In this document: piece by piece, positions 6,566 to 60,072 of the stretch
Position numbering within the stretch: position 1 is the stretch's first letter
Layout: each line of letters opens with the position of its first letter
Assembly: GCF_004126535.1 (NCBI RefSeq)
Contig: NZ_PPCV01000001.1
Coordinates: 372,001-436,000, forward strand
Source: Propioniciclava flava
GTDB taxonomy: Bacteria > Actinomycetota > Actinomycetes > Propionibacteriales > Propionibacteriaceae
Direction: 5' to 3'
Length of the DNA: 64,000 nt
Made by a program: the position numbers and the translations under genes
Notes under the pieces: generated by a model
Seen by the model: only the letters and a program-made list of their open reading frames with translations
What the model was told of the DNA's origin: nothing
Databases searched by the model: none

Positions 6566-6605
6566 GGCCTCGATCCTAGAAGGCGGCCCCGACAGCGCGG
6601 CGCCC

Positions 6606-32415: not shown

Positions 32416-32601
32416 TCACGACGGCAGGTCGGTGGGCAGGAGGTTCCCCTCGGCGTCGAGTTCCAAGACGACGTCGAGGTGGATCCGACCCAGAAATCCC
32501 TGGTCATGGCTGACCACCACCAAGGCTCCGCGGTAGGCCGACAGTGCCGCGACCAGAGCATCGATGCTGGCCAGGTCGAGATTGTTGGTCGGCTCAGCGA
32601 G
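32416..32601 (-). pseudogene. ABC-F family ATPase, C-terminal remnant cut by integration
   Basis: Read on the minus strand, 61 codons remain: the Walker B-like block [20 protein letters not shown], then [16 protein letters not shown] and a short tail to the stop at 32416-32418. An ABC-F protein would normally be over 500 residues with two ATPase domains; everything before the second Walker B is missing. An in-frame TGA (32602-32604) lies immediately upstream, and the serine recombinase gene starts 36 bases later. The junction near 32,600 is therefore the probable left attachment site of the integrated element. The missing 5' part should lie at the other end of the element, outside this window. 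Confidence 0.82.
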
Positions 32602-32637: not shown

Positions 32638-34191
32638 ATGTCCATGACCACCACTACTGACTCCATGCTCGAAGCCCCCGAACTCTCCACCTCGCTGGAA
32701 GCCTCGATCGCACGGCTCCGCGAGGTCGCGGACGACGACTGGACGCCGGCCATCGTCTACGGACGAGCGTCCCAGGACCGCAAGAAGCTCATGCGCTCGA
32801 TCAACGACCAGCTGCTGGACTGCGTGTCCTGGTGCGAGCCCTTGCGCTGGTACCCGGACGTGATCGTGCGTGACTCCGACCGCTCCGCCTCCCAGTGGCG
32901 GAAGAAGATCCGCGAGGGCTTCGACGAGGTGATGGCCCTGATCGAGGAAGGCAAGCACGGCGGGTTCGTCACCTGGGAACCCTCCAGGGCCGCGCGTGAC
33001 CTGGAGGTCTACGTGCAGCTGCGCAAGGCCTGCCGCCGAGCCAACGTCCTCTACCTCACCCACGGACGCGTGTACGACTTCACCCGATCGGATGACTCGT
33101 TTGCGATGGGCTGGGAGTTCTTACGGGCCGAAGCCGACGCGGACACGATGCGCGAACGCCAGTTGCGCACCGTGAAGCTCAATGCCGAGCGCGGCCGCCC
33201 CCACGGCCGTCTCCCGTATGGGTACCGGCGGATCTATGACCAGCTCACCGGGGTGTTGCTGCGGCAGGAGCCTGATCCGCACAAGGGCCAGATCGTCAGG
33301 GATGCGGCCCGTGACGTGCTGGCGGGTAAGTCGCTGCACTCGGTGGCGATGCGGCTCCAGGATGCCGGGGAGCCAACCCCGATGAAGTCCTGGACCGAGG
33401 CCCCGCGCGGGTGGGAGGCGAACACGGTCCGCCAGGTGCTGGAGAATCCCACGATCGCTGGTAAGCGGGTCTATCAGGGCGAGATCATCGGGGAGGCGCA
33501 GTGGGAGCCGCTGATCGATTGGGAGACGTTCCAGAGGCTTCAGCGCCTGTTCGCCGACCCCGGCCGCAGGGTCAAGGGCGGCGGCGGTACACAGGCGAAG
33601 ACGCTGATGACCCACATCGCCAAGTGCCACTACTGCGGACGCCCCTTGAAGCGGGCCGTGCTGCGGCGGAAGAAGCAGGCGGATGCGGTGAAGTACTACT
33701 GCGGCTTCCGCGGCTGCTACAAGACGACCATCGCCCAGCAGGGCCTGGACGACTACGTCGAGGAGGCAGTGCTGGCCTGGTTCGAGAGACCTGAGAACCT
33801 CGCCCGGCTCACCGGCGACGACGGGGGCGAGTGGGTCGCGAAGGCCGATGCGGCGCAGGATCGCCGGGCGGCGTTGCAGACCCGGCTGGATGAAGCGATC
33901 GCCCAGTACACAGCCGGGGAGCTGAATCTGGACACGCTGACGAAGGTCGAACAGACCCTGCGTCCGCAGATTGCGGACGCAGAGCGGGAGCTGATCCCGC
34001 CGATTACCGACGCCCGCGTCAAGGCTCTGGTCACGGCCCCGGACCTGCGGGCGGCCTGGAGCGAGCTGTCACTGGCGGAGCAGCGGGCGATCATCAAGGC
34101 CGGGTTCGACATCCGTATCCAGCAAACGCAGAACCGCGGCCAGAACGCCTTCGAACCGGGCCGGGTGCTCATGGAGCCCCGCACCCGATGA
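32638..34191 (+). CDS. Large serine recombinase (site-specific integrase)
   Basis: A 517-residue large serine recombinase that would integrate or excise the element by recombination at short att sites. The N-terminal resolvase domain starts at about residue 38 (VYGRASQDRKKLMRS) with the catalytic serine in GRASQD, followed by the active-site block TWEPSRAARDLEVY near residue 120. The recombinase domain follows (LPYGYRRIYDQLTGVLLRQE), then a zinc-ribbon-type domain with CHYCGRPLKRAV and YYCGFRGCYK around residues 328-365. A C-terminal coiled-coil region closes the protein. Its position beside a truncated ABC-F gene fits the usual layout of integrase next to attL. Confidence 0.93.
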   Translation: MSMTTTTDSMLEAPELSTSLEASIARLREVADDDWTPAIVYGRASQDRKKLMRSINDQLLDCVSWCEPLRWYPDVIVRDSDRSASQWRKKIREGFDEVMALIEEGKHGGFVTWEPSRAARDLEVYVQLRKACRRANVLYLTHGRVYDFTRSDDSFAMGWEFLRAEADADTMRERQLRTVKLNAERGRPHGRLPYGYRRIYDQLTGVLLRQEPDPHKGQIVRDAARDVLAGKSLHSVAMRLQDAGEPTPMKSWTEAPRGWEANTVRQVLENPTIAGKRVYQGEIIGEAQWEPLIDWETFQRLQRLFADPGRRVKGGGGTQAKTLMTHIAKCHYCGRPLKRAVLRRKKQADAVKYYCGFRGCYKTTIAQQGLDDYVEEAVLAWFERPENLARLTGDDGGEWVAKADAAQDRRAALQTRLDEAIAQYTAGELNLDTLTKVEQTLRPQIADAERELIPPITDARVKALVTAPDLRAAWSELSLAEQRAIIKAGFDIRIQQTQNRGQNAFEPGRVLMEPRTR

Positions 34192-34207: not shown

Positions 34208-34408
34208 TCACCGGGTGCGCCCACGCAGGGTGTTGCGCACCAGGGTGACCAGCTCGCTGCTCATCGGCGGGAACTGGGCCGCTGCCTCACGCGCAGCGGC
34301 CCGGATGCGTTCGCGCTCCGCCTCGGCGACGGTGCTCGCCGAAGCCTCCTCGGACTCGGCGTGGTCTCGATCGGTGGTCTGGGTCTGAAGTGTCCGGATG
34401 CTGCTCAT
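34208..34408 (-). CDS. Small hypothetical protein
   Basis: A 66-residue charged, mostly helical protein (EEASASTVAEAERERIRAAA, then ELVTLVRNTLRGRTR) with no recognised domain. It lies convergent with the serine recombinase gene, 16 bases from its stop. The ATG follows directly on an 11-bp palindrome at 34409-34419, which could be an operator or part of the leader. Codon use looks coding-like, but the gene is short and unproven. Confidence 0.5.
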   Translation of the reverse strand: MSSIRTLQTQTTDRDHAESEEASASTVAEAERERIRAAAREAAAQFPPMSSELVTLVRNTLRGRTR

Positions 34409-34419: not shown

Positions 34420-34510
34420 ACGCTCATACACCCGCGCACAGAAAAAAGCAACCACTGCATCTAGCCATCCAAACGGATGCGAGCTACTATATGTGCATGT
34501 TCAGTGCTGT

Positions 34511-35076
34511 CGTGCCCGTCAAGACCCCCAGGTCGGGGTCGGGCACGGGGGTGCCGATTCGGCACCCCCGTGACGGCCACCGCTCAGGCTTCACGGTGGG
34601 AGAAGTTTTCCCGCACCGTCCGCACCCGAACAGCGAGGGTTCCACGGTGCCTGCAAGTTGCCGTCACCGTCAGCCCGCCCCTATGTTCCACGGTGGTGCC
34701 ATTTTGGCACCACCGTCAGACGTTGTTGACGGGGGTGAAAATTTTTCACCACCGTGCCCCGGTGCACGGTCCTGCAAATTTTGCGGGACCGCACACGCCC
34801 CGGCTGCGGCAGGCGAACGGTACCGGAAATTTTCCGGCCCCGTTGACCTTCCTCCGTCTCGCGCACGCAGGTGGCGTGGTGGTGCCGAATCGGCACCACC
34901 ACAGCCCACCCACCTGGGGGGTGCCGGTGCCGCCACGGTAGCGGCACCGTAGTCGAACGGGCTGCGAAAATTTCCCGCCCCGTTCCACTCGGCGTCTCGC
35001 CGTGACCAACGGGTCCGCACATTTTGCGGACCCGTCCCCATGGCCGGGTGACGCGGCCGCCGATTCGGCGTACCCG
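34511..35076. repeat. Array of about twelve diverged, individually palindromic units
   Basis: At least twelve inverted repeats of about 25-31 bp stand 30-60 bp apart, filling a 570-base gene-free stretch. Positions: 34511-34547, 34544-34572, 34593-34619, 34644-34670, 34690-34716, 34729-34755, 34767-34791, 34816-34844, 34876-34902, 34925-34949, 34955-34985, 35009-35035, 35045-35076. Arms differ between units (for example ACGGTGGTGCCA, ACGGGTCCGCA, GTGGTGGTGCCGA, AACGG..CCGGAAA) but each arm matches its own partner. Many units share CGG at the outer edge and a central A/T core such as AATTTT or GATTC. Spacers are unrelated to each other. Open frames on both strands here are by-products of the palindromes. 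Function unknown. Confidence 0.85.
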
Positions 35077-35086
35077 TTGCGGGGTG

Positions 35087-35290
35087 TCACCGCGTGATCC
35101 CATGAGCACGGTCGATCTGGGCCAGCCGGATCGCGATAGCCTCATCCGCGGTGAGTTCCCCGGCCAGGTCCCGGCGGCCCAGGGCACGGTCGGCGTCGGT
35201 CTCCTCGGCCCCAGCCATCCGCTGCCCGGCCGTCACCTGCGCCTCGACCCAGTCGATACCGACCCGCGAGGCCGGTCCGGTACTGTCCAT
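35087..35290 (-). CDS. Small VbhA-like antitoxin-domain protein
   Basis: A 67-residue protein whose second half (ADRALGRRDLAGELTADEAI followed by AIRLAQIDRAHG) resembles the VbhA antitoxin fold (G-x-L-T-x-[DE]-E-[AL] then a helix). VbhA-type antitoxins normally inhibit Fic-domain AMP transferases, but no Fic gene is in the window. It lies downstream of the zeta toxin gene on the same strand, separated by 98 bases, and ends 11 bases from the hairpin array. It may be an orphan or a third member of the toxin module. Confidence 0.55.
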   Translation of the reverse strand: MDSTGPASRVGIDWVEAQVTAGQRMAGAEETDADRALGRRDLAGELTADEAIAIRLAQIDRAHGITR

Positions 35291-35388: not shown

Positions 35389-36453
35389 TCAGAGGCTGCG
35401 GCCGGGCGGGTCACGGCGGTCCGGTCCGGACCTGCCCGGTGCCTGCCACGGGTCCTCCCGGCCGGGATTGCGGCCACCGGTCAGGCGGCGCAGCGCCCGC
35501 CTGGCCTTGGTCCGGGCCGGTTCGGGGGCGACCTGCTCCACGTAGAGCCTGCGCCAGCGCTGCTGCTGGTCCAGCTCCGCAGTGTCCACACCGGGCACTG
35601 TCGTGGCGGTGTCGATCATGGTCTGGGCATCGGCTTGCAGGAGCCGGAACGCCGGTGCCGTGACCGGGCCGAGATAGCCCGGCCGTGCCCGAGCCAGAGC
35701 GAAGACCTGCTCATACCGGGCCAGCCACGCCAGCGCCTCGCCCGGGGCCAGGCGGCGGGTCTGCTCGCCCTGGAGCACGTCGGCGGCCGAGACCGACCCT
35801 GCCGCCGACTCGCCGGTGGTGTCGTGGAGAAGCCGTTCGCGGGAGAACACCCGCACCCTGGTGATGAACGGCAACGCCTCCAGCGCGGCCACAACCTTTG
35901 GAGAGCCCGCCAATGCGGTCTCGTGCGCCTGTGGTGGGGTCCACCGGCCGATCCCGGGATACGCGGCCGCCAGCGCCCGCTGCTGGGCCGATAGGCGTGA
36001 GACCGCCGCCGGGGTCGCCACGGCGACGACTTCGACCCGGTACCCGGCCTCGGCGAACCGCGAGGCGGTGCCGGTGACCATCTCCGGGTCACGGAACGTG
36101 CCCTCCAACAGCACCGAGAACCGGTGTGCCAACGCATGATCGAGAGCGAGACGCACCAGTCCGCCCGAGACCGGTGCTGTCTTCTCCGGCATCGCCAAGG
36201 GTTCCTCGACCATCAACCGGGCGTAGTCCGGGTGGTACTCGCGTAGGTCATCCCCGGTGATCGGCACCAGGGTCGGGTCTTCTGCCAGGATCGCGTCCTG
36301 AGCGACGGTCTTACCCGCCGCCGGCTGCCCGCCCAGCAGCACCAGCCGCGGACTCTCTGGGGTCGGGGCGTAGTCGCCGAAGATGTCTTCACGGGCGATG
36401 TGCTCGAACTGCCACGCCAGCCACTGAGGGCTGTCGAACTCCGGCGCGGCCAC
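35389..36453 (-). CDS. Zeta toxin family protein
   Basis: A 354-residue kinase of the zeta-toxin family; characterised members phosphorylate UDP-N-acetylglucosamine or other nucleotide sugars and poison cell-wall synthesis. Walker A is LLGGQPAAGKTVAQD near residue 40, the substrate region is ITGDDLREYHPDYARLM near residue 65, and the family block SVLLEGTFRDPEMV is near residue 113. The C-terminus is a long basic, Pro/Arg-rich tail. It begins at a GTG 18 bases after the stop of a 101-residue gene that probably encodes its antitoxin. Such modules stabilise plasmids and integrative elements. Confidence 0.88.
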   Translation of the reverse strand: MAAPEFDSPQWLAWQFEHIAREDIFGDYAPTPESPRLVLLGGQPAAGKTVAQDAILAEDPTLVPITGDDLREYHPDYARLMVEEPLAMPEKTAPVSGGLVRLALDHALAHRFSVLLEGTFRDPEMVTGTASRFAEAGYRVEVVAVATPAAVSRLSAQQRALAAAYPGIGRWTPPQAHETALAGSPKVVAALEALPFITRVRVFSRERLLHDTTGESAAGSVSAADVLQGEQTRRLAPGEALAWLARYEQVFALARARPGYLGPVTAPAFRLLQADAQTMIDTATTVPGVDTAELDQQQRWRRLYVEQVAPEPARTKARRALRRLTGGRNPGREDPWQAPGRSGPDRRDPPGRSL

Positions 36454-47990: not shown

Positions 47991-48051
47991 GTTACCGGCG
48001 GTAGTGCCCGCGCACCTTCCTCACGAAGCGACTCGTGAGGAAGGCGGTAAC
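47991..48051. other. Nested inverted repeats ahead of the relaxase gene (oriT candidate)
   Basis: A perfect 12-bp stem (CCTTCCTCACGA at 48015-48026 and TCGTGAGGAAGG at 48033-48044, 6-base loop) is enclosed by a second perfect pair, GTTACCG (47991-47997) and CGGTAAC (48045-48051). The structure ends 4 bases before the relaxase ATG at 48056. Relaxase genes often lie beside their own oriT or are repressed through such repeats. Confidence 0.5.
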
Positions 48052-48055
48052 CGGC

Positions 48056-51000
48056 ATGAAAGGCGGCGTAACCCTCTACCGCGGACCGGGCACGGCCGCC
48101 CGCCGCTACCTCGAATCCGACCGGTCCACCGCGGACGACTACTACCTCGAAGGCGGCACCGCCCTGGCGGACTTCACCATCACCAACGCCGCCGGTGAGG
48201 TCGTCGCCAATACCGGGCTGGACCCGGAGCAGTACGCGGGCTGGGTCGACTGGATCCATCCGCTGACCGGGGAGCAGATGGGCATCCCGCGTGAGGCTGG
48301 CGAGGTCCGGAAGGGCTCCCCGCGGTTCGCGGAGATGGTCGTCAACACCCCCAAGAGCCTGTCGATCGCTGCTGCGTTGCATCCGGAGGTCTCTGACGCC
48401 CTCGATGCCGCGCAACAGGACGCGGTGGCCGAGATTCGGCGGTGGCTGGCACAGCACGCCTACACGCGGGTCGGCCCGCGCGGGCAGCAGGAAATCATCC
48501 CCGCCGAGTCGGTGCAGACCGTCGCCGTCGTGCACCGCACGTCGCGGGCGGGTGATCCGCACCGGCACGTGCACTTCCAGATCGGCACTCGCGTTCCCGC
48601 CGCGGGCAAATGGCGTGCCCTCGATACCGCGGTCCTGTTCAAGCAACAGGGCGCCATCCGTGCACTCGGTGCTGCGGTGATCGCCGCGCACCCGCAATTG
48701 GCTGCAACCCTGGACGCGCACGGCCTCACCCTCGATCCCGTCACCGGGGAGGTCACGGAGTTAGAGCGGTTCAACCCGGTGATGAGCAAGCGGGCCCATC
48801 AAGTCGAACGCAACGTGAAGCGGTTGGAGGCCGAGTGGGAGGCCGCGCACCCCGGCGAGGAGCCCGGCCCCGTGGTCCGCGCGCGGCTGTTGCACAAGGC
48901 GTGGGCGCATGAGCGGCCGAACAAGAAGCCCACCGACCTCGGCGACGAGGAAGCGTGGCGGGCCGAGCTGGTCGAGGCCGGGTACGACCCCGAGACCCTG
49001 CACCGTGCCCCGGCTCCCGAGCGGGTCTCCGTCGATGACCTCAGCGTGCAGGAGGTCGCCAACCGTGCCCTGGACCGGGCTGCGGCGGGTGGGTCAACGT
49101 GGACGGTGCACACCATCCGCGAGCACGTCACCACCGACCACGGCGTGCAAGCAACCGGCGAGGAGTTGCGCGAGTTCGTGCAACTCGCCACCGACCTTGC
49201 AATAGGCGATTGCTTCTCGGTGCTCCCGCCCGGTGCGGTGCAGCCTGAGCATGTTGCACACCTCACCTCGCTGCGGGTGGTGGAGGCCGAGACGCAGTTG
49301 CGTGACCGGCTCGAAGCGCAGGCACCGAACCGCGAGCCTCGCCGCCCCGACCTCAGCGACCTCGCCGCCGAACACGGCCTCGATGCCGGGCAGGCCGAGG
49401 CCGCTGCCGCGGTCGCCTCCCGCGACTCGCTCGTGGTCGTCGAGGGGGCGGCCGGGTCCGGGAAGACCACCATGCTCGCCACCGCCATCGAAGCCCTCGA
49501 CCACGACGGCCGGGCCGCGCGGGTGGTTACGCCGACGAAGAAGGCCGCCCAAGTCGCGGGAGAGACGCTAAAGGTGCCCGCGGATTCCGTGGCCGCGCTC
49601 GTCTACGCGCACGGGTTCCGGTGGAATGACGACGGCGTCTGGACCCGCCTCACGCGCGGCGACACCGACCCCACCACCGGCCGCATCTATACGGGTCCAC
49701 CGGAGGGGGCACGGCTCACTCGGGGTGAGCGGGTGATCGTGGACGAGGCCGGGATGCTCGACCAGGACACCGCCCTGGCCCTCCTCACCGTCATCCGCGA
49801 AGCGAGGGCGTCGGTGGCGCTGGTCGGCGATCGTGCCCAACTGCCCGCGGTTGGTCGCGGCGGCGTGCTCGACATGGCCGCCCACATCCGCGGTGCAACC
49901 GTGGATATGAGCGAACTGCACCGCTTCGCTGACGACCAGTATGCGGCGCTGACGTTGCGCATGCGCGAGGGGAAGAACCCGGCGGCGATCTTCGACCAGT
50001 TGCACGCCCTCGGCCTGATCCGGTTGCATGCCGACGATGACGCGCTGCGCGAGCACATCGCCGAGCACACGGCCCCAGAGGATGCGGTGACCGTGGCGAC
50101 CAACGACGAAGCCACCGCGCTCAACGAGCGCATCCGCACCCTCCGTGTCGAGCGAGGCGAGGTCGATGACGCCCGCACCGTGACCGGCTCGGATGGTCTG
50201 CCGATCGGTGTGGGGGATCTGGTGCAGGCGCGGCAGAACGACGCCGAGCTGCGGGTGGCGAACCGGCAGACTTTCACCGTCCAACAGATCAGCGAGGACG
50301 GTACGGTGCACGCAATCGAGACTGGCACCGACCGGAAGCACAACGTCACGGTCACTCTCCCGGCCGAGTATGTGGCTGAGCATGTGCACCTGGCCTACGC
50401 TGCCACTGCCTACGGCGTGCAAGGCGCAACCGTGAACAGTGCGCACACGGTGCTCTCCGACACCCTCGACGCCGCAGCCGTCTACGTCGGCCTCACCCGC
50501 GGCAGCGGCCGCAACGAACTCCACGTGATCGCCGCCGACCTCGCGGAGGCGAAGGCGCAGTTCGTCGAGGCGATGGGCCGCGACCGCGCCGACCGCGGCC
50601 TCGATGATGCCACCGCCCGAGCGCACGAGGCCATTGCCGGTCTGGTCAAGGACGGGCCAGTCTCGATGGTCACCAGAGAGCTGGCCCGCCTGGAAGGGCT
50701 GGCGGAGAAGGCTGAGCAGCGGGCGGCCTGGTGGGAACAGGTCGGTGACCAGCTTACTGCGCTCTCGGCGCGGCATCGGGAGGAGACGGACGAGAGCACC
50801 ACCGCACTAACTGCCGCGGAGGAGCACGCCGCGAGGGTGCGGACCGAGACCGTCGCGCCCCTGGAGACACGCGCCGAGGCCGAAGGCCGGGAGTACCTCG
50901 ATGCTGTCGGCGAGGAAGCTCAGGCGGCCGGACGACTCGCCACGGCCGGGTGGTTCGGCAAGCGGCGTGCCCAGCGCGAGCACGACACCGCCCGCGACCA

Positions 51001-51496
51001 CGCCCAGGCGCTGCGCGATCGCCTGTCCGCGGAGTGGGGCACTCTCCCGCGGCATCCGGGTGACCTTCATGCGTGGGCGGGTCGTGTCGCCGCCCAGCAG
51101 GCCGAGGAGGCTCCCGAGGTGGTGGAGGCTGACGAGGCCGTGGTCGAGGCGCGGCAGGCGCGTACCGGGTTGCAGGAGCGGCAGCGCCGCGACCGGCTCA
51201 CCCTTCTGGCACGCCTCCACGGGGCGGACAACGTCCGCCGTGACCCCGACCGGTACCTGCGCACCAGCCCCCGGAGGCAGGCGGCGAAGTGGAGGGCCTC
51301 GGCGGAGGAGGCATGCGCTGAGGCCGCCGAGCTCCGCGGCGTGCCGCCGGATCAGGCGGTGTATCTCATCGAGATCAAACGCGCCGCCGCCGAAGCCCGC
51401 GAGGCAGCCCTGCGTGACCGGCAACGACAGCTCCCCGACGAGCAACACCCCGACCGGATTACACCCCGTCGAGACGGGCCGGCACGCGGTCTTTAG
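48056..51496 (+). CDS. MobF-family relaxase-helicase (TrwC/TraA-like)
   Basis: A 1,146-residue conjugative relaxase fused to a RecD-like helicase. The relaxase domain has a tyrosine pair (DDYYLEGG, near residue 29) and the three-histidine metal site in DPHRHVHFQIG (residues about 169-173). From about residue 430 a helicase follows, with Walker A EGAAGSGKTTMLATAIEAL near 462, VIVDEAGMLDQDTA, ALVGDRAQLPAVGRGGVLDM, and a C-terminal AYAATAYGVQGATVNSAHTV motif. A coiled-coil tail closes the protein. ATG 48056 is preferred over GTG 48035, because the GTG lies inside a hairpin. It shows that the element is or was conjugative; no coupling protein or type IV secretion genes appear in this window. Confidence 0.92.
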   Translation: MKGGVTLYRGPGTAARRYLESDRSTADDYYLEGGTALADFTITNAAGEVVANTGLDPEQYAGWVDWIHPLTGEQMGIPREAGEVRKGSPRFAEMVVNTPKSLSIAAALHPEVSDALDAAQQDAVAEIRRWLAQHAYTRVGPRGQQEIIPAESVQTVAVVHRTSRAGDPHRHVHFQIGTRVPAAGKWRALDTAVLFKQQGAIRALGAAVIAAHPQLAATLDAHGLTLDPVTGEVTELERFNPVMSKRAHQVERNVKRLEAEWEAAHPGEEPGPVVRARLLHKAWAHERPNKKPTDLGDEEAWRAELVEAGYDPETLHRAPAPERVSVDDLSVQEVANRALDRAAAGGSTWTVHTIREHVTTDHGVQATGEELREFVQLATDLAIGDCFSVLPPGAVQPEHVAHLTSLRVVEAETQLRDRLEAQAPNREPRRPDLSDLAAEHGLDAGQAEAAAAVASRDSLVVVEGAAGSGKTTMLATAIEALDHDGRAARVVTPTKKAAQVAGETLKVPADSVAALVYAHGFRWNDDGVWTRLTRGDTDPTTGRIYTGPPEGARLTRGERVIVDEAGMLDQDTALALLTVIREARASVALVGDRAQLPAVGRGGVLDMAAHIRGATVDMSELHRFADDQYAALTLRMREGKNPAAIFDQLHALGLIRLHADDDALREHIAEHTAPEDAVTVATNDEATALNERIRTLRVERGEVDDARTVTGSDGLPIGVGDLVQARQNDAELRVANRQTFTVQQISEDGTVHAIETGTDRKHNVTVTLPAEYVAEHVHLAYAATAYGVQGATVNSAHTVLSDTLDAAAVYVGLTRGSGRNELHVIAADLAEAKAQFVEAMGRDRADRGLDDATARAHEAIAGLVKDGPVSMVTRELARLEGLAEKAEQRAAWWEQVGDQLTALSARHREETDESTTALTAAEEHAARVRTETVAPLETRAEAEGREYLDAVGEEAQAAGRLATAGWFGKRRAQREHDTARDHAQALRDRLSAEWGTLPRHPGDLHAWAGRVAAQQAEEAPEVVEADEAVVEARQARTGLQERQRRDRLTLLARLHGADNVRRDPDRYLRTSPRRQAAKWRASAEEACAEAAELRGVPPDQAVYLIEIKRAAAEAREAALRDRQRQLPDEQHPDRITPRRDGPARGL

Positions 51497-51588: not shown

Positions 51589-53047
51589 GGCTCTTGGGAC
51601 ATTCGGTGGGGGTAGGGCTCGCCGGGCGATGATCGGCGGGTAGGGGTCGAGGTCCCCGAGGATCAGAAGCGCTAACCACCTGATCGATCACGAGGACCTC
51701 GACGTGCTTCACCCTACTTCGGGGTGCGCTGACGCGCCCTCTGCCGCTGATCCGTGTTCCCGCTGTGACTTGCTGCTCGGTCTGGACGGGGTCCATGTCG
51801 AGCACGTCGACCGTCGCGACGGGCTGCTGGTGGTGACGGTCTCGACGCCGGCGGCGCCGATCGGCTGCCCTTCGTGCGGGGTCGTCGCGACGGGTCGTGG
51901 GCGTCGACGCCGGCTGCTGCATGACGTGCCCGGGACGACGCGGGTGCGGATCGTGTGGCGGCAACGCGTGTGGCGGTGCGGTGACGATGGTTGCGCGAAG
52001 AAGACGTTCGTGGAGCAAGTGCCCACTTTGGTCGCTCGGCGCGGGTCGATCACGAAGCGCGCCGTCGGCTGGGCGATCGGGCAGCTGCGTCGTGAACACG
52101 CCACGGTTCATGGCTTGGCTCGGCAGCTGGGGACGTCGTGGAAGACGGTGTGGCGCGCGGTCGAACCCGAGCTGGTGCGGCTCGCCGCCGACGAAGCCCG
52201 GTTCGAGGGTGTCACGACGCTTGGCGTCGATGAGCATGTCTGGCATCACGTCGACCCGCGCAAACGGGGCCCGAAGGAGCTGACCGGGATGGTCGACCTG
52301 AGCCGCGATAGTGCGGGAAAGACGCGGTCCAGGCTGCTGGATCTGGTGCCGGGCAGGTCCGGGAAGGCGTATGCGTCCTGGCTCGCAGACCGCGGCGACA
52401 CCTTCCGCAAGAACGTGCGGGTGGCAGCTCTCGATCCGTTCGCCGGCTATAAGACCGCGATCAACGACAAGCTCGAGGACGCCACAGCGGTGCTCGACGC
52501 GTTCCACGTCGTCAAGCTCGGCACCGCCGCGGTCGACGAGGTCCGCCGTCGGGTGCAACAGGACACCCTCGGGCATCGGGGACGGAAGGGCGATCCGCTC
52601 TACGGGATCCAGACCATCCTCCGCGCCGGAGCGGAGAACCTCACTGACAAGCAGCAAGTCAGGCTGACCACCGCGATCGAGGCCGACCCCGCGCACGACG
52701 AGGTGTTCGTCGCGTGGCAGTGCGCGCAGCAGCTGCGCTCCGCCTACCACACGAAGGACCTCGCCGAAGGGCAGCGGATCGCCGAGAAGGTCGTCGACAC
52801 GTTCCACACCTGCCCGATCCCCGAGATAGCCCGCCTCGGCCGGACGTTGCGCCGCTGGCGCTCAGCATTCCTGGCGTACTTCACGACCGGGCGATCATCG
52901 AACGGGGGCACCGAAGCGGTGAACGGGATCATCGAGCTCCACCGACGCCTCGCTCGCGGCTACCGCAACCGAGACAACTACCGGCTCCGGATGCTCCTCG
53001 CCGCCGGCGGACTCACCCAATGACCCCCACCGGATGTCCGAAGAGCC
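51589..53047 (+). mobile_element. Complete ISL3-family insertion sequence
   Basis: 1,459 bp bounded by 25-bp imperfect inverted repeats (left GGCTCTTGGGACATTCGGTG, right end reading GGCTCTTCGGACATCCGGTG on the minus strand). It is flanked by a perfect 8-bp target duplication GCATAACG at 51581-51588 and 53048-53055, the size expected for ISL3. One transposase gene fills it. The intact duplication and frame-restoring excision suggest a recent insertion. Confidence 0.93.
51704..53023 (+). CDS. ISL3 family transposase
   Basis: A 439-residue DDE transposase. The N-terminal zinc finger (GCPSCGVVATGRGRR, then RVWRCGDDGCAKKTF) is followed by a helix-turn-helix (HATVHGLARQLGTSWKTVWR) and the catalytic core with Asp in TTLGVDEHVWHHVDPRK and AALDPFAGYKTAINDKLED and Glu in SSNGGTEAVNGIIELHRRLA. 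The protein is full length, starting at GTG 51704, 115 bases inside the left end. Confidence 0.95.
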   Translation: MLHPTSGCADAPSAADPCSRCDLLLGLDGVHVEHVDRRDGLLVVTVSTPAAPIGCPSCGVVATGRGRRRRLLHDVPGTTRVRIVWRQRVWRCGDDGCAKKTFVEQVPTLVARRGSITKRAVGWAIGQLRREHATVHGLARQLGTSWKTVWRAVEPELVRLAADEARFEGVTTLGVDEHVWHHVDPRKRGPKELTGMVDLSRDSAGKTRSRLLDLVPGRSGKAYASWLADRGDTFRKNVRVAALDPFAGYKTAINDKLEDATAVLDAFHVVKLGTAAVDEVRRRVQQDTLGHRGRKGDPLYGIQTILRAGAENLTDKQQVRLTTAIEADPAHDEVFVAWQCAQQLRSAYHTKDLAEGQRIAEKVVDTFHTCPIPEIARLGRTLRRWRSAFLAYFTTGRSSNGGTEAVNGIIELHRRLARGYRNRDNYRLRMLLAAGGLTQ

Positions 53048-53178
53048 GCATAACGTGAGCGGCGCAAGGCAACGTGCGTTGCGTCACCGTAGTCGTGGTA
53101 CTGACGCTTGCCCGTCTCGTCGCAGAAAACGCGCGAAAAGGACGGCTGCCACTTTTTCTTGCGCCGACGACGGCTCAC
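53048..53178 (-). pseudogene. Small zinc-ribbon protein, N-terminal part (split by ISL3 element)
   Basis: The first 43 codons and two bases of the gene completed at 51493-51580. It starts MSRRRRKKKWQPSFSRVFCD and continues TGKRQYHDYGDATHVALRRS. The lysine/arginine-rich start suggests nucleic-acid binding. In its present state translation would run into the ISL3 end and stop at 52978. The gene lies 11 bases from the stop of the receptor-like TetR gene, on the same strand. Confidence 0.7.
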
Positions 53179-53189
53179 GGTTCACTCGC

Positions 53190-53786
53190 TTAGATGGTCG
53201 TGTTCGTTCCTGAGTCGGTTATTATTTCAAGAATAGAATCAAGGCAGGTGGACATTTTCACCGATATGTTGTCGCAATCCTGAGTCATTTCGGCAATCTC
53301 CTTTGCGCCCAGGAGTGCGAGAAAGATGAGATCAGCAACTCGCGACACTTTTATTTGCGTGGATACGCTACCTTGTTGATATGCGATTTGAAGCTGCTCT
53401 TCTATGAACCCCCGCCAAGTTCGACGCGGGTCAATGTGTCGTTCCGGGAAGTGCTCGGAGGACCTGGCCGCGAGGTGGAGCCCGGCTCTCACCTCCGGGA
53501 TCGTTTGGATATGTGACCCAACCAACGCGACGACGCAACGAAGGCGTTCGATCGGCCTGTCCTCGGTGCGTCGCGCTTGGGCTTGTGCATCGCGCATCGT
53601 TTGGCCTTCGACATCGAGGATATCTCTTGCGACCGCGGAGACGCTTGAGTAAGCGCTACGAGCCGTCTCTTCACTGACTCCCGCCCCACGAGCAATGTCG
53701 GACAGACTAACTTTCTCATACGGCAAGACGGCGAAGATATTAGCTGCGGCCTTACGTACATCCTGTTTGAGATTAGAATGAGTCAT
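53190..53786 (-). CDS. TetR-family regulator, butyrolactone-receptor-like
   Basis: A 198-residue protein. The HTH region (YEKVSLSDIARGAGVSEETA, then RSAYSSVSAVARDIL) is somewhat divergent from the TetR consensus. The ligand domain has the receptor-type pattern TIPEVRAGLHLAARSSEHFP and TWRGFIEEQLQIAYQQGS that ArpA/ScbR proteins share. It starts 4 bases inside the end of the AvrD-like gene, so signal synthase-like gene and receptor-like gene are one operon. Base composition is clearly less GC-rich than the core, as in the rest of the cluster. Confidence 0.75.
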   Translation of the reverse strand: MTHSNLKQDVRKAAANIFAVLPYEKVSLSDIARGAGVSEETARSAYSSVSAVARDILDVEGQTMRDAQAQARRTEDRPIERLRCVVALVGSHIQTIPEVRAGLHLAARSSEHFPERHIDPRRTWRGFIEEQLQIAYQQGSVSTQIKVSRVADLIFLALLGAKEIAEMTQDCDNISVKMSTCLDSILEIITDSGTNTTI

Positions 53787-54754
53787 GCGTCACCTCGCAA
53801 CGTTTTCGTGTAGGCCAGAGAGGCACCTGCACGCACTCCGTTGCTAGCTGTGCAAGTTACCCGAAGATCGTGGACCAACTGCCCTTGTCTGCGTAGGACG
53901 TTGTTTCGATCCAAGCGAGTCTCGATTCGAACTTGTGTAGGTATCGTCTCGGAGCCGATCCGCTCGCGGTTGATGAACATTGACCGCATCCACAGGTCTC
54001 CCAACCTCGACCGATCAGAGTTGTTGGCATAGGAGGCCGCCGCTTGAGATGTCTGGCCCATCGCAGTGACGTAGTCGACCATGGTGAGGCGAGGCTACCT
54101 CTCTGAGTCGATACCGCCAACCCGGGGGATACGGCTCCCCGTGTTGTACTCATGGACCGTGGTCAACAATCGTCGCCATGGATCGTACGTCTCTATGTGG
54201 GCGGTCGAGTGGATGTACCTGAAACCGTCTTCGTAGACACTTCGGAGTCTTTCCATGTTCTGTGATTGAGTATCACCAAGCGGTGCTTCTGCGAGCCAAG
54301 CCTTGACCCGTATGTTCCCCGCAACTGCATCCACCATAAGCGACGGTCCATGTTCATCTTGTCGCAGCGTGAGGTCAATCGGGACCTCATTGAGCTTTGT
54401 CCAGGGGCGGGAAGCAGACTTGAGTGAGACAGCGCGGAGGCCAAGGCTGTTCCCAGTCGGAAACCTGGGCAGCCGACCAAGCGCCGACTCGCAACCTTGA
54501 GCAACAAGGCTAATGGCGTCTACGGAACTGAGATGACGCTCGCGCTCAACCCCGTCGGTGGTCAACGACCAGTCCGCCGGGTACCGAACGTCGGCAATCA
54601 GCGTGCACCTAACGCTCGCGGACAGTTTGTCTTCCAATCGGTTAATTTCGGTGCGGTAGGCGACAGACCGGTACCCTTGCGCGAAGTACCTACTGCGTTC
54701 CGGTCCAAGAACCTCAGCCAAGGGCACGAACGTTTCTGTAGGCCTATGCGTCAT
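53783..54754 (-). pseudogene. AvrD-like (butyrolactone/syringolide-type) biosynthesis gene with in-frame TAG
   Basis: Read through the TAG at 54095-54097 the frame has 323 codons, about the length of AvrD proteins (pfam AvrD), which make butyrolactone-containing syringolide precursors and are related to A-factor-type hotdog proteins. Family-like segments are VLGPERSRYFAQGYRSVAYR at the N-terminus, the block RERHLSSVDAISLVAQGCES near residue 75, and, after the stop, MVDYVTAMGQTSQAAASYA and RLGDLWMRSMF. The upstream part has 219 residues and the downstream part could restart at ATG 54082 (99 residues), but its ribosome-binding site is poor. RBS AGGAGG precedes ATG 54754. It could be a nonsense mutation, a true two-gene split, or a sequencing error. 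The family assignment is from memory of the family and moderately sure. Confidence 0.55.
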
Positions 54755-54780
54755 CGGGCCCTCCTCGCGACTGGTCTACG

Positions 54781-54798
54781 TTACACAGCCTACTGTAT
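54781..54798. promoter_or_regulatory. Operator-like inverted repeat, avrD/TetR intergenic (site A)
   Basis: TTACA-N8-TGTAT in an 18-base element TTACACAGCCTACTGTAT, in the 78-base gap between the divergent AvrD-like and TetR genes. It matches site B at 56662-56679 in 15 of 18 positions. A TATAGC or TACTGT hexamer within it could be part of the TetR promoter. Confidence 0.65.
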
Positions 54799-54832
54799 AG
54801 CCTCAGAAGAGCCGGCTTGGTACAGTTGCCCT

Positions 54833-55471
54833 GTGATGATGAACCGAGCTGGCCGCCCTCTGGCCCCAGGCATCTCGTCCGCCCTTCTCGCCGCCGCGGA
54901 AGACATCATGACTGAACGCGGCTACAGCGAGCTATCAGTTGACCTCCTCACCAATACGGTAGGAATCACGCGTCCGACGTTTTATCGGCGCTTTAGAAAT
55001 ATTGCTGACCTGGCCTTCGCCGTCATCCAGCAACGGTTCGGCAAGGGAGAAGAGGTTAACACTGGAAACCTAATGGGTGACCTGTTCGAGTTGCAGAAAT
55101 ATGAACTTGATATGATGGCAGACCCCTTGATCATCAAGAACCTGCCCGGCCTAATTCTTTCATTCAAGGCTGATCAACAGATCGAGGACTTGTACCAAAA
55201 ACACTTTATCGAGCCACGGCGTGACAAAGTGTCTGAAGTCGTGAAGCGGGCTATAAGCAGAGGCGAAATATCAGACGAGACCTACGACTATGATTATCTC
55301 TGCGACATTCTCCTCGGGCCGTTTCTGACCAGAATTCTGATGCCGGTCGAGGGGACGCTGAGTATTGATTTAGCTTATCAGACAGCGATCACTGTGTGGA
55401 GTCTACTCACCACTTCCTCAGATGTTCTAAATCGGTCACGTGTATCCGAGCTACTGTCTGAAGTCAACTAG
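54833..55471 (+). CDS. TetR-family regulator of the aminobenzoate cluster (putative)
   Basis: A 212-residue TetR protein. The helix-turn-helix is TERGYSELSVDLLTNTVGIT followed by RPTFYRRFRNIADLAFAVIQ. The C-terminal domain (KNLPGLILSFKADQQIEDLY) resembles TetR_C families with an aromatic ligand pocket, but this is uncertain. Start is GTG 54833 or the ATG triplets right after it. It is divergent from the AvrD-like gene and shares with the biosynthetic operon an 18-bp operator-like element, so it is the best candidate for the cluster repressor. Confidence 0.8.
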   Translation: MMMNRAGRPLAPGISSALLAAAEDIMTERGYSELSVDLLTNTVGITRPTFYRRFRNIADLAFAVIQQRFGKGEEVNTGNLMGDLFELQKYELDMMADPLIIKNLPGLILSFKADQQIEDLYQKHFIEPRRDKVSEVVKRAISRGEISDETYDYDYLCDILLGPFLTRILMPVEGTLSIDLAYQTAITVWSLLTTSSDVLNRSRVSELLSEVN

Positions 55472-55478
55472 TCGAGCG

Positions 55479-56507
55479 TCAAGCAACCGTTATTCTGAAG
55501 AGCCGCCGCGCATTTCCACTGCAAAACTTCCGACGATCCGACACGCTTATCGGTGCATGTTCGATCCAGTTCGCGGCAGGCTGGTTTTCGGAATACGGAT
55601 AATCAACCGAGAACATGATTCGGTCGCTGCCGATCGCCAATATCGCGTTGGTGAGAGAACTATCCGAAAACGATCCGCTTGTGGTGATCCAAATGTTATC
55701 CGCAAAATACTCCTCAAGGGTTTTCTGCGGACGCTTGTCAAACGGGTTGAGATCGAACATGTTCTGAGTGCGCCACAGCAACGCAGGCAGTGCTTCGCCC
55801 ATGTGTCCCACTATAAGCTTCGCGTCTGGGAAGCGGTCAAACACGCCGGAGAATATAATTCTAAGCACGTGCGTAGCCGTCTCTGCACCGAACCCCCAAG
55901 TCGCACCCTTCAACTCAGGATGGCCCTCGTACAGTCTTAAACCCCCACTGAGTGCGGACCTGGGATGAAGGTAAAGAGGTACGTCCAACTCACACAGCTT
56001 CTCCCAAAACCGATCGTTTGCTGCCTCATCCAGATAGATTCCTCTTTCTGGATGCTGCGTACTCGTATATCCATTAACCATGGCACCTTTGAAGCCGAGA
56101 TCAACGACGGCTCTTTCAAGCTCCTGCGCTGCCGCACCGGCGTTCTGCAACGGAACCGCCGCGAATCCTGAGTACCGAGACGGATGCCGACGGACTACTT
56201 CTGCAAGAAAGTCGTTCTCAGAGCGCGCTTTCTTTTCTGCGTCCGCACTGTCGACGATGGCTTGGATGCCGGGTGCCGTCAGCGACAAGATCGCATGGTC
56301 GATGCCCGCGGCATCCATGCGGGTGAGGCGGATCTCGTCAAATTCAGCCAATAGACTTTGGATGGGGCGATAGTACGACGGCATAACACCGCCACCGTCA
56401 GAGACCCTAGCTAGTTCAGTCTCGTCACTAAGAATTCTCTTGGAGTCGTTGGGGTGCTGATACGCCTCTTCGACTGCGATCTTGCCGAGTTGCTGCGGTT
56501 CCTGCAT
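55479..56507 (-). CDS. Amidohydrolase-family aromatic acid decarboxylase (LigW/gamma-resorcylate type)
   Basis: A 342-residue TIM-barrel metalloenzyme of the amidohydrolase 2 superfamily. The N-terminus GKIAVEEAYQHP carries the Glu ligand seen in non-oxidative decarboxylases (gamma-resorcylate, 2,3-dihydroxybenzoate, 5-carboxyvanillate) in place of the usual HxH. Further metal residues are in LYLHPRSALSGG near residue 180, LIVGHMGEALPALLW near residue 230 and RIMFSVDYPYSENQPAANW near residue 300. It would remove CO2 from a hydroxylated or amino-hydroxylated benzoate. It is divergent from the biosynthetic operon and convergent with the TetR gene (7-base gap). A good RBS (AGGAAGG) precedes ATG 56507. 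Confidence 0.8.
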   Translation of the reverse strand: MQEPQQLGKIAVEEAYQHPNDSKRILSDETELARVSDGGGVMPSYYRPIQSLLAEFDEIRLTRMDAAGIDHAILSLTAPGIQAIVDSADAEKKARSENDFLAEVVRRHPSRYSGFAAVPLQNAGAAAQELERAVVDLGFKGAMVNGYTSTQHPERGIYLDEAANDRFWEKLCELDVPLYLHPRSALSGGLRLYEGHPELKGATWGFGAETATHVLRIIFSGVFDRFPDAKLIVGHMGEALPALLWRTQNMFDLNPFDKRPQKTLEEYFADNIWITTSGSFSDSSLTNAILAIGSDRIMFSVDYPYSENQPAANWIEHAPISVSDRRKFCSGNARRLFRITVA

Positions 56508-56661
56508 TGATGCCTTCCTACTGTGATCGTGCGCACCACCCGGGGATGCGGTCCGCGGCTGAGCGGGTACGCCGGGTGGCTCTTACCCGCTACCGGTCGG
56601 GACACCAAGAACGGGGTAGGACCTGGTTCTTTGCCCTCGATCGCGCCGCGCGTGCTAGTCT

Positions 56662-56679
56662 TTACACACCCGACTGTAA
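56662..56679. promoter_or_regulatory. Operator-like inverted repeat upstream of the biosynthetic operon (site B)
   Basis: TTACACACCCGACTGTAA, a TTACA-N8-TGTAA inverted repeat, lies 103 bases before the GTG of the luciferase-like gene, in the 274-base divergent region with the amidohydrolase. It matches site A at 54781-54798. A TAGTCT hexamer at 56656-56661 could be a -10 element directly next to it. The rest of the gap shows no other structure. Confidence 0.68.
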
Positions 56680-56781
56680 GTCAACCTACCACGTACCGGA
56701 GAGAGACGACGCTAGGCCCTGAACAGGCGGCCGAGCCGACTTCCTTCCACCGGGCTGATGTGGGCAAGAGAGGAGCTCATC

Positions 56782-57855
56782 GTGGAGTTCGGAGTGAATT
56801 TTTTCCCCGACGTGCAACCTGCCGAGAAGTCCGGCAAGACCTACTTCGAGGAGTGCCTCGAGGTAGTGCGAATGTTGGAGCCACTGGGCTACACACACGC
56901 GAGAATTGTTGAGCACTACTTTCGCTCATACGGCGGATACTCGCCCAATCCCATGCTTTTTCTCTCCGCGGCGGCGATGTGTACCGAGAAGCTGCGTTTG
57001 GTTACGGGCGCCGTTCTGCCCGCCTTCAATCATCCTCTGAAGCTGGCTGGCGAGGCGGGAATGCTCGACGCCTTGTCGGACGGTCGGCTCGAAGTGGGCT
57101 TTGCCCGAGCGTTCTTGCCGCACAAATTCGAGCGCTTCGGGGTTGATATGGATACCAGCCGTGACCGCTTCGAGGAGGGAGTGGATGCAGTTGTCGACTT
57201 GCTTGAGAACGACAGCGCCTCCCTGGATGGTAAGTTCCATTCCTTCCCAGCGACAACTTCTCTGCCTCGTCCCACCCAGATGCCGCGTCCGCCGATGTGG
57301 GTAGCCGCGCTTAGCAGTCCTAAGAGTTTCCGAAGGGCGGGAGAACGAGGGTTTGGCGTCATGGCTAATCCGATCGCTCCGGATTCTCTTCGAGAGAATA
57401 TTGCGGAGTACCGCGATGCTTGGCGCATGGCTGGGCACACAGGAGAAGGTCGCGTGATGCTCGCCTTCCACATGTACTGTGCCGATGACACCGAGACCGC
57501 GGTGGCTGACGCCACTGCTCCAATCAACGGTTACCTCAAGAGCCTTGTTGATGCCGCGTCTGAGTGGGTCGAAGGTAGCACAAGCGATGACTATCCGGGC
57601 TATGATCACATGATTGCGAGCATGGCTCAGGACGACTGCCAGAGTCTCATGGAGCGCAGCGCCGCCCTCGTCGGCACACCTGACGATATAGTGCGGCAGT
57701 TCTCGAAATTCTACGAGGATTGTGGAGGGTTCGATATCGCGAGCCTTCAGGTCAACTTCTCCAGTCTTGATCCCGAGAAAGCGAAGGCCTCTCTCGAACG
57801 CTTCTCGCGAGAGGCGCTTCCGCGGCTAGTGACGCTCGGTGAAACGGAGAACTAA
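56782..57855 (+). CDS. LLM-class flavin-dependent oxidoreductase (luciferase-like monooxygenase)
   Basis: A 357-residue TIM-barrel flavin enzyme of the bacterial-luciferase superfamily, using FMNH2 or F420H2. Start at GTG 56782 has AGAGGAG 7 bases ahead. Landmark segments are VEFGVNFFPDVQPAEKSGKT, then LSAAAMCTEKLRLVTGAVLP, EAGMLDALSDGRLEVGFARA near residue 95, and RPPMWVAALSSPKSFRRAGE near residue 165. Substrate cannot be read from sequence; in this context an N- or ring-oxygenation of an aminobenzoate-derived intermediate is possible. It is the first gene of the plus-strand biosynthetic operon and its stop overlaps the next start (TAATG). Confidence 0.85.
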   Translation: MEFGVNFFPDVQPAEKSGKTYFEECLEVVRMLEPLGYTHARIVEHYFRSYGGYSPNPMLFLSAAAMCTEKLRLVTGAVLPAFNHPLKLAGEAGMLDALSDGRLEVGFARAFLPHKFERFGVDMDTSRDRFEEGVDAVVDLLENDSASLDGKFHSFPATTSLPRPTQMPRPPMWVAALSSPKSFRRAGERGFGVMANPIAPDSLRENIAEYRDAWRMAGHTGEGRVMLAFHMYCADDTETAVADATAPINGYLKSLVDAASEWVEGSTSDDYPGYDHMIASMAQDDCQSLMERSAALVGTPDDIVRQFSKFYEDCGGFDIASLQVNFSSLDPEKAKASLERFSREALPRLVTLGETEN

Positions 57856-58571
57856 TGTCCAACGCTGGTGGGGAGGAAAGGGAGCTTGCAGATTACCGAC
57901 GCTCCCTCATGCGTAGTCGGGAAGCCGCGAGGCAAGAGCCGAACCCCACTTTTATGCTCGGCGGCTACAGGTGGTCTCAGTTTGCGGGTGTCTTCCCACC
58001 GGAACGTTCGCCCTCAACGGGAGCCTTCCTTAAGCTGCTCGAAGTACCGGGAAACGCAAGCGTATTAGAAATCGGCTGCGGTACGGGTGTTATTTCGGTG
58101 CACGCGCTCCTCAGAGGCGCTGCCCATGTTGTCGCTACTGACTTGAGTGCTGAGGCGGTTGCGAACACGCTGGACAACGCGGCGAGGCACGGTGTCGAGG
58201 ATCGACTCGATGTCCGCCAAGGAAACATGTTCTCCGCGATCCGTGAGCATGAGGCATTCGACATCGTGTTTTGGCATTCAAGTTTCGTTAAGGCCCCCTC
58301 CACCCTAACTGGATTGACCGACCTCGATCTTGCTTACGTCGATCCGGGGTATCGTTCGCATTTAGCGTTCCTGAGCACAGCGCTTCAGCATACTAACGGA
58401 GGCGGTGTGGCATTTCTAGGTTTCAGCAGCAGAGGAGACCGCCAGCTACTCGATGAGCTGGCCGCAGACAACGGCGTCGCGCTAAACCCATATGACCAGA
58501 CGACAGTCCTTGAGGATGACGGCGAAGTCAAGTACGAACTCTTGAAACTCGAAGAGCCCGCGGGACGGTGA
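57855..58571 (+). CDS. SAM-dependent methyltransferase
   Basis: A 238-residue class I methyltransferase. The SAM motif is VLEIGCGTGVISVHALLRGA near residue 72, followed by VVATDLSAEAVANTLDNAAR. Overall it resembles the PrmC/HemK group (for example DPGYRSHLAFLSTALQHTNG), but where N5-glutamine or N6-adenine methylases have NPPY it reads IVFWHSSFVKAPS, so a small-molecule substrate is more likely. It overlaps the oxidoreductase stop by one base and is followed after 3 bases by the exporter gene. Confidence 0.82.
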   Translation: MSNAGGEERELADYRRSLMRSREAARQEPNPTFMLGGYRWSQFAGVFPPERSPSTGAFLKLLEVPGNASVLEIGCGTGVISVHALLRGAAHVVATDLSAEAVANTLDNAARHGVEDRLDVRQGNMFSAIREHEAFDIVFWHSSFVKAPSTLTGLTDLDLAYVDPGYRSHLAFLSTALQHTNGGGVAFLGFSSRGDRQLLDELAADNGVALNPYDQTTVLEDDGEVKYELLKLEEPAGR

Positions 58572-58574
58572 AGC

Positions 58575-60026: not shown

Positions 60027-60072
60027 TCCCCTACTCCGCGCGGCCACTGATTCACTATAAGGACGTGGAACG

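Follow-up and report, generated by a model that had tools for sequence, protein, structure and literature searches.

A conserved palindrome array beside a serine recombinase gene is a candidate cluster of binding sites for ParB-like proteins of conjugative elements

Gene content of the locus and limits of the element

The window is the whole stretch of DNA that was analysed (64,000 nt of contig NZ_PPCV01000001.1), taken from a genome of 3.0 Mb (G000). The features of the locus are as follows.

32590..32595: left attachment core CGGCTC and start of the element, inside the LDEPTN-motif codons of an ABC-F-like gene (read by eye)
32638..34191, plus strand: large serine recombinase of 517 aa, with Resolvase and Recombinase domains
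34208..34408, minus strand: small ORF of 66 aa between the recombinase gene and the array, with counterparts at related loci and on plasmid pNAPH (coordinates by hand)
34458..34493: site CATCTAG-N20-TACTATATG between the small ORF and the array; pNAPH also has one
34545..35077: palindrome array
35087..35290, minus strand: 67-aa protein, putative VbhA, a name taken from the original prediction; a similar ORF in Brevibacterium linens (L013) has no Pfam match (coordinates by hand)
35389..36453, minus strand: zeta toxin family protein (Pfam Zeta_toxin)
48035..51496, plus strand: MobF family relaxase, inside the element bounds

The other half of the interrupted gene lies 34.65 kb to the right in G000, i.e., 3.2 kb past the window. 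In Brevibacterium sp. CS2 the two halves of such a gene are 24.7 kb apart, and both elements have the core CGGCTC on either side. The right core of the G000 element is at combined coordinate 67242 (about 439242 on C11). By eye, LDEPTN-type codons are present at the left ends of eight recombinase loci, in different ABC-ATPase-like genes from strain to strain. The recombinase elements seem to target DNA that encodes a conserved protein motif (LDEPTN).

Towards the right of the window the GC content drops to 55–59% (past 54 kb), and the region 53000–64000 carries genes for an anthranilate-synthase-like enzyme, an aminotransferase, a luciferase-like monooxygenase, a methyltransferase and an MFS transporter. 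These are apparently element cargo resembling a biosynthetic cluster.

Architecture of the palindrome array

Twelve palindromic units, each of 27 bp and with start-to-start spacings of 33–59 bp, occupy positions 34545–35077, which bears out the original prediction of about twelve palindromes in this gene-free stretch. The units have in common their 27 bp length and, with few exceptions, the ends ACGG/CCGT, and they diverge most in mid-arm. They had been described as diverged, which is correct for the mid-arm, but their length and mostly shared ends show that they are not unrelated; the claim that each is self-complementary likewise stands for the palindromes as such, but pairing is complete (13/13) only in units 1 and 8, and units 2, 10 and 12 reach 10/13.

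The density of palindromes is well above that of shuffled sequence, as had been anticipated. A palindrome finder reports eight units at a score of at least 8 between 34511 and 35080, against zero, one or two units (133, 53 and 14 shuffles, respectively) in 200 Markov shuffles. With a score of at least 10, 112 consecutive 570-bp segments gave 100 with no unit, ten with one, one with two, and the array segment with four. A strict test (27 bp, at least 10/13 pairs and at least 6/8 end bases) finds 11 matches in the 64-kb window, all 11 of them within the array, while Markov shuffles of 63.4 kb (n = 5) give a mean of 0.8; this test misses the unit at 34876, which has the ends GTGG/CCAC. A CRISPR array is ruled out, in agreement with the original prediction, since the repeats are not near-identical and their spacing is irregular.

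The site CATCTAG-N20-TACTATATG recurs 5′ of the arrays, that of pNAPH included, with one or two changes in some. The columns corresponding to 34459–34510 show 85% identity across four arrays.

Arrays in related elements

The recombinases of the window and of Brevibacterium sp. CS2 share 96% identity, and a protein search with the former retrieved eight loci. Five of these (L011, L013, L014, L015 and L018), all from other Brevibacterium strains, carry an orthologous array, as had been expected for related elements; the three without one are L012, L017 and L016, the last on a contig that ends about 430 bases past the recombinase gene. Unit order is largely kept among the Brevibacterium arrays, and in four of them column identity is 86.5% in the palindromes versus 58.3% in the spacers.

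A nucleotide search with the array found a similar array on the Rhodococcus pyridinivorans plasmid pNAPH, the sole match among plasmids, and no match among phages. The pNAPH array also lies behind a large serine recombinase gene, whose product is about 29% identical to that of the window over part of its length, and an IS481 element separates the two. Clusters of the strict pattern were found in two of 391 genomes of the order, G000 and G342, and no array accompanies the distant or fragmentary serine recombinases of ten further regions (L019–L028). In scans of IMG/VR, neither MobF nor one palindrome pattern gave a match; another palindrome pattern gave a single match with 11/13 pairs, on a contig with neither MobF nor a ParB-like gene. 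The origin with telomere-like palindromes suggested in the original prediction is disfavoured, and an actinobacterial telomere is ruled out, since arrays occur within an integrated element and on circular pNAPH and not at a replicon end.

The stretch between the small ORF and the array is split by foreign DNA in pNAPH (IS481, L010 4856–5924) and in CS2 (L011 7786–11317), and in L016 foreign DNA occupies the corresponding place from 7789 onwards. In two of these three the break falls within or beside CATCTAG. In B. luteolum (L017, about 5884–7876) the element has seemingly shrunk to about 2 kb, comprising the recombinase gene, the small ORF and a right-end-like sequence, with no array or cargo.

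Mobilization genes of array-bearing elements

MobF relaxases 88–92% identical to that of the window are present in CS2, B. linens, B. aurantiacum and S111. The CS2 gene is 2.0 kb from the array, and in the other three it was placed by genome and not by contig. Both pNAPH and G342 encode a more distant MobF protein (about 61% identical) some 5 kb from their array, and B. iodinum has an array with no MobF match at E 1e-30. No TraG-D_C coupling protein was found inside the element bounds in G000 or CS2. With its recombinase, its MobF and no TraG-D_C match within bounds, the Brevibacterium carrier has the predicted make-up of an integrative mobilizable element. Both pNAPH and the G342 contig have a coupling-protein match about 44–49 kb from the array, so the argument that the carrier needs a helper is limited to Brevibacterium.

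Among the matches listed in a search with 83 matching genomes, G417 has a MobF 65% identical to that of the window, and two palindromes of different specificity lie 223 bp further on. This mini-array (L208 9469–9538, contig C59) stands behind the MobF gene in a genome of another family. It is an independent link of this relaxase with such sites, though the link is not general, because six plasmid MobF regions (L210–L215, 15 kb on each side where the record allows) carry no array; pLW1 and a Microbacterium paraoxydans plasmid encode MobF proteins 60% identical to that of the window, without an array nearby.

One single palindrome with 12/13 pairs was also seen elsewhere in G000 (L077 6353–6379, C11:21352). 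About 95 bp downstream of it begins a stretch that matches large serine recombinases (22–25% identity), and a gene that by eye resembles a DNA methyltransferase is nearby.

Palindromes inside ParB-like genes

When 391 genomes of the order were scanned for the palindrome pattern, 77 had matches; many of these matches are perfect, their stems differ and most are single. The context of 34 loci was examined, and in 32 the site lies inside a called ORF, most of these sharing ParB-like sequence around the site. At E 1e-20 a ParB-like gene is present in 56 of 293 genomes, and G000 has none.

The palindrome occupies one fixed codon position. At least 10/13 pairs are formed there in 63 of 64 distinct ParB-like genes, a figure that uses only genes found by protein search, as 40 loci had been selected by the palindrome pattern itself. 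In those 63 genes the fixed position outscores every other position of the gene, and when the pattern-chosen loci are included, 80 of the genes for all 81 distinct proteins have at least 10/13 pairs at the same place. The position corresponds to a linker just before a presumed helix-turn-helix (HTH, placed by eye). About 15 bp separate the end of the site from the downstream codon of one of the presumed reading residues, and about 60 bp separate it from the codons of the recognition helix.

ParB_N scores 21.8 bits in the ParB-like protein, against a Pfam cut-off of 26.3. A profile of the family weakly resembles Spo0J and Noc chains in the N-domain (best E 4.7e-7), and its alignment with the chromosomal ParB of G000 spans the N-domain only. 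One such element that was annotated (L066) has as neighbours of the ParB-like gene a primase-polymerase, an ArdC-like protein, a DUF2637 protein and an M23 peptidase. Of the seven copies of the ParB-like gene that were compared, five have a coupling protein encoded 11–12 kb away (two copies in G278 and one each in G006, CS2 and S111); in B. linens the distance is 22 kb, and for the second G006 copy it is about 12 kb if the contig is circular. By this gene content the carriers of the ParB-like gene look like conjugative elements.

A classical ParABS partition locus does not fit, as no ParA ATPase gene stands beside the ParB-like gene: for 11 copies in eight genomes, no ParA-type gene (PF13614) was found within 30 kb on the same contig, the nearest being 31 kb away (CS2). 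Since no ParA-type gene lies within this distance, the ParB-like protein may be a regulator or loading clamp and not a partition protein.

Two variants of the intragenic site were observed. In L073 (6635–6715, G390 C34) the linker contains two different tandem palindromes and the protein is lengthened accordingly. In the subgroup L140–L146 the sites mostly end in CCGG and are rich in G/C at the centre, and the proteins have N, S or H at residue 170 together with R at residue 174; array unit 11 shares AC at positions 11–12 with several of these sites.

Covariation between protein residues and site bases

Two ParB-like genes of one genome encode proteins of 94% identity; their sites read CCC..GGG and GGT..ACC, and residue 154 is D in one and K in the other. 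Across 57 genes less than 90% identical (78 with at least 11 pairs before the identity cut), with descent partly corrected, the top corrected mutual-information couplings join residue 154 to bases 8 and 7, residue 170 to base 10, residues 174 and 171 to base 12, and residue 125 to bases 5 and 6. Columns outside the HTH appear lower down the list.

Individual residues go with particular bases: D154 with CC (21/21) and K154 with GT (12/12), K170 with G (17/17) and N170 with C (6/6), and K174 with AA (25/25). Residue 125 is looser, with Q going with TG in 26 of 29 cases and K with TC in 12 of 16. These tables read almost as a code for residues 154, 170 and 174, and more loosely for residue 125 and for R at 154.

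The same trend appears in pairs that are at least 85% identical elsewhere, which are not independent of one another: bases 7–8 differ in 30 of 31 pairs that differ at residue 154 and in none of 53 that agree there, and base 10 differs in 16 of 20 pairs that differ at residue 170 and in none of 64 that agree. Residue 125 does not predict bases 5–6, the site being different in 24 of 82 near pairs with an identical residue, and residues 171 and 174 are invariant among near pairs. For pairs at least 70% identical, residue 169 is a better predictor of base 10 than residue 170.

This pattern is what would be expected if a dimeric DNA-binding protein and its site had co-evolved. The intragenic palindrome is most likely the binding site of its own ParB-like protein, because its stem bases stay symmetric and covary with presumed HTH residues.

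The structured RNA offered in the original prediction is disfavoured by the same coupling, as a bare hairpin would not covary with residues of a protein. Such an RNA, of about 580 nt with twelve hairpins and acting, e.g., as a sponge for an RNA-binding protein, would agree with the stable folding of the array (z = −10.7; none of 100 shuffles as stable), with the TACTAT upstream of it and with the occurrence of the same hairpin within the coding sequences of ParB-like genes. Good folding is expected of palindromes anyway, however, and the unit length is a constant 27 bp. In a consensus scan there is no terminator, and the sole sigma-70-like promoter match is on the minus strand; a known structured RNA is ruled out by the lack of any Rfam match at gathering score in the window. 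Mismatches also argue against RNA pairing: on the coding strand of the ParB-like genes there are 18 A-C and 3 G-T (n = 47), and in the array units 13 A-C and 13 G-T, with C-T (18) the commonest (n = 70). An RNA function is thus most improbable.

Hairpins of single-stranded DNA, acting in conjugation (priming, single-strand promoters) or in recombination, would suit the conjugation or mobilization genes found on the array elements and the ParB-like elements checked. They are very unlikely given that the bases track HTH residues of the ParB-like protein and that no strand rule governs the centre base (A 33, T 18, C 17 and G 12 in 80 sites).

Half-sites of the array units

Half-sites of the array units (positions 5–12) were compared with natural ones, i.e., those of the intragenic sites. 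For the array of the window the results are as follows.

Unit 1, 34545..34571: GGGTGCCG/GGGTGCCG, identical to the intragenic site of L166
Unit 2, 34593..34619: right half-site TGCGGGAA, identical to that of L110
Unit 3, 34644..34670: nearest natural half-site two mismatches away
Unit 4, 34690..34716: TGGTGCCA/TGGTGCCA, identical to L136
Unit 5, 34729..34755: GGGTGAAA/TGGTGAAA, a natural half-site one mismatch away
Unit 6, 34766..34792: hybrid TCCTGCAA/TCCCGCAA, both half-sites natural
Unit 7, 34817..34843: TACCGGAA/GGCCGGAA; the left half is TCCCGGAA in L011, L013 and L018
Unit 8, 34876..34902: perfect palindrome with ends GTGG/CCAC and half-site TGGTGCCG, dropped by the end filter of the strict test and from the half-site table
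Unit 9, 34924..34950: TGCCGCCA/TGCCGCTA, one mismatch from natural
Unit 10, 34957..34983: GCTGCGAA/GGCGGGAA, one mismatch from natural
Unit 11, 35009..35035: hybrid GTCCGCAC/GTCCGCAA, both half-sites natural (L146, L170)
Unit 12, 35051..35077: GGCCGCCG/GTACGCCG, one mismatch from natural

Seven different natural half-sites are found in this array, and units 3, 9, 10 and 12 have no exact one. The half-site table has 69 unit rows from seven arrays, with orthologous units counted separately; 47 rows contain an exact natural half-site, 17 are one mismatch away and 5 are two away. The table includes two weak units with 8/13 pairs (34795 in the window and L011 11636) and omits 34876; without the weak units the counts are 47 of 67 exact, 16 with one mismatch and 4 with two. 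Taken as 49 distinct half-sites, the mean distance to natural ones is 1.10 mismatches versus 1.69 when columns are shuffled, with none of 500 shuffles as low, and 13 match exactly (shuffled mean 4.1, maximum 12).

Symmetry combined with a natural half-site on both sides is seen in only 11 of the 69 rows, and ten rows are hybrids of two natural half-sites. The hybrid TCCTGCAA/TCCCGCAA occurs in all six Brevibacterium arrays examined (that of the window counted), in reversed order in L014 and L015. Asymmetry of the units may reflect decay, or it may allow a unit to serve two proteins.

The original prediction had also offered a multi-site protein-binding locus tied to the toxin module. A protein-binding locus is supported, but not as part of that module, and an operator of the toxin module is ruled out, the palindromes matching candidate sites of ParB-like proteins of other conjugative elements. 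The toxin neighbour is exchangeable: the gene to the right is that of a zeta toxin in the window and of a Fic protein in B. linens (L013).

Nothing found in G000 reads the array now, because its only ParB_N protein is of the chromosomal type. A ParB-like gene is present in three of seven array-bearing genomes searched (S111, B. linens and CS2); none was found at 1e-5 in pNAPH, G342, G394 or G395. The S111 ParB-like gene has the site TGGTGCAA, which is a half-site of the S111 array. The site of the B. linens gene is GTCCGCAA, and its array has GTCCGCAC and ATCCGCAA. In CS2, where the ParB-like gene is 1.4 Mb away from the array, the site is TGGCGGAA/TGCCGGAA and the nearest array half-site is GGCCGGAA.

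The array could instead be a centromere or regulatory region of its own element, with one element-encoded protein reading only the shared ends and centre. The nearly constant ends and length of the units would agree with this, as would the conservation of unit order between Brevibacterium species. A search with ParB_N found no second such protein in the genome, however, and a single tolerant protein leaves the mid-arm matches to foreign specificities unexplained, which makes an own centromere quite unlikely.

A proposed function for the array

The array, its conservation, the intragenic sites, the residue–base covariation, the shared half-sites and the missing ParB-like gene were all computed directly. 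They suggest that the units of the array are probably clustered dimer-binding sites, recognised by ParB-like proteins that other, conjugative elements encode, and that the mobilizable element may exploit or compete with these proteins. An element with a recombinase and MobF but no ParB-like gene would have gathered sites of several specificities beside its recombinase gene. The likeliest mechanism is that, while the cell contains a conjugative element of one of several types, the ParB-like protein of that element loads onto the matching units; we infer this binding from the site matches. The mobilizable element might then gain stability, timing or transfer from the loaded protein, and/or the array might draw the protein away from the conjugative element. 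Any benefit to the array element, and its direction, is hypothetical.

The second outcome could also stand alone, the array titrating ParB-like proteins of incoming conjugative elements and so disabling rivals, with no gain from hijacking. The candidate-binding evidence (covariation and shared half-sites) is the same for such a decoy, a broad decoy needs several specificities, and the parS mimics of the mobilizable element SGI1 are described as destabilising its helper (PMC10954446). Against this, the elements of G000 and CS2 are without a coupling-protein match, and pure antagonism would be costly because they seem to need foreign transfer machinery. Defence alone is therefore rather unlikely.

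A bolder form of the proposed exploitation is tentatively put forward, as a possibility of limited probability. The array would act as an address book, holding sites for the ParB-like proteins of many helpers in a fixed order, with hybrids that carry two specificities, and the arrival of a helper would be sensed at the recombinase end and lead to excision, maintenance and transfer. As part of the same tentative scheme, the helpers' site and reader residues, which change together, would behave like a lock-and-key cassette.

The proposal connects an unexplained, gene-free palindrome array with naturally occurring genes that each encode a DNA-binding protein together with its presumed site, the two covarying residue by base. 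It would provide a readable recognition code for a ParB-like family and a testable prediction of which mobile elements can interact; if the binding is true, pairings of mobilizable and conjugative elements in Actinobacteria would be predictable from sequence.

Comparison with known systems

The spo0J gene of Bacillus subtilis contains an intragenic parS, which has the common parS sequence. ParB-like genes are similar in having the presumed site of the protein within its own gene, and differ in that the site changes with the protein.

For ParB/parS and Noc/NBS, a few residues in or around the HTH are described as determining base preference in the palindrome (PMC7383237). The ParB-like family resembles these in a predicted ParB-type N-domain, a few candidate specificity residues around the presumed HTH and a palindromic site; it differs in that the 27-bp site is inside the linker of its own gene and in its many natural specificities. 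BreLI, a conjugative island of Brevibacterium, likewise has a ParB gene together with conjugation genes (PMC6579920); it was compared by description only, and that description reports no palindrome array.

The closest parallel is SGI1, an integrative mobilizable element described as hijacking the ParABS system of IncC plasmids through the parS-like sites DR1 and DR2, which bind IncC ParB, stabilise SGI1 and destabilise the plasmid (PMC10954446). Common to both cases are inverted repeats that resemble a conjugative helper's ParB sites, here as candidate mimics, on a mobilizable element, here a predicted one, with no Par system of its own. As in a parS mimic, the array sites match the candidate sites of foreign ParB-type proteins (47 of 69 rows), and the carrier is without such a protein in G000, pNAPH, G342, G394 and G395. 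In the account of SGI1 there are two sites of one specificity, with binding demonstrated and a helper that has ParABS; here there are about ten to twelve sites of several specificities, in Actinobacteria, with binding inferred and no ParA found near the ParB-like genes.

In the open-access literature, no multi-specific ordered array and no intragenic covarying site was found, and only SGI1 comes close. Site mimicry on a mobilizable element is known already from SGI1, while the combination of several specificities in one ordered array is apparently new, as apparently is the coupling of site and reader inside one gene. The array carrier may be a satellite element that handles many helpers at once, as against the one type handled by SGI1.
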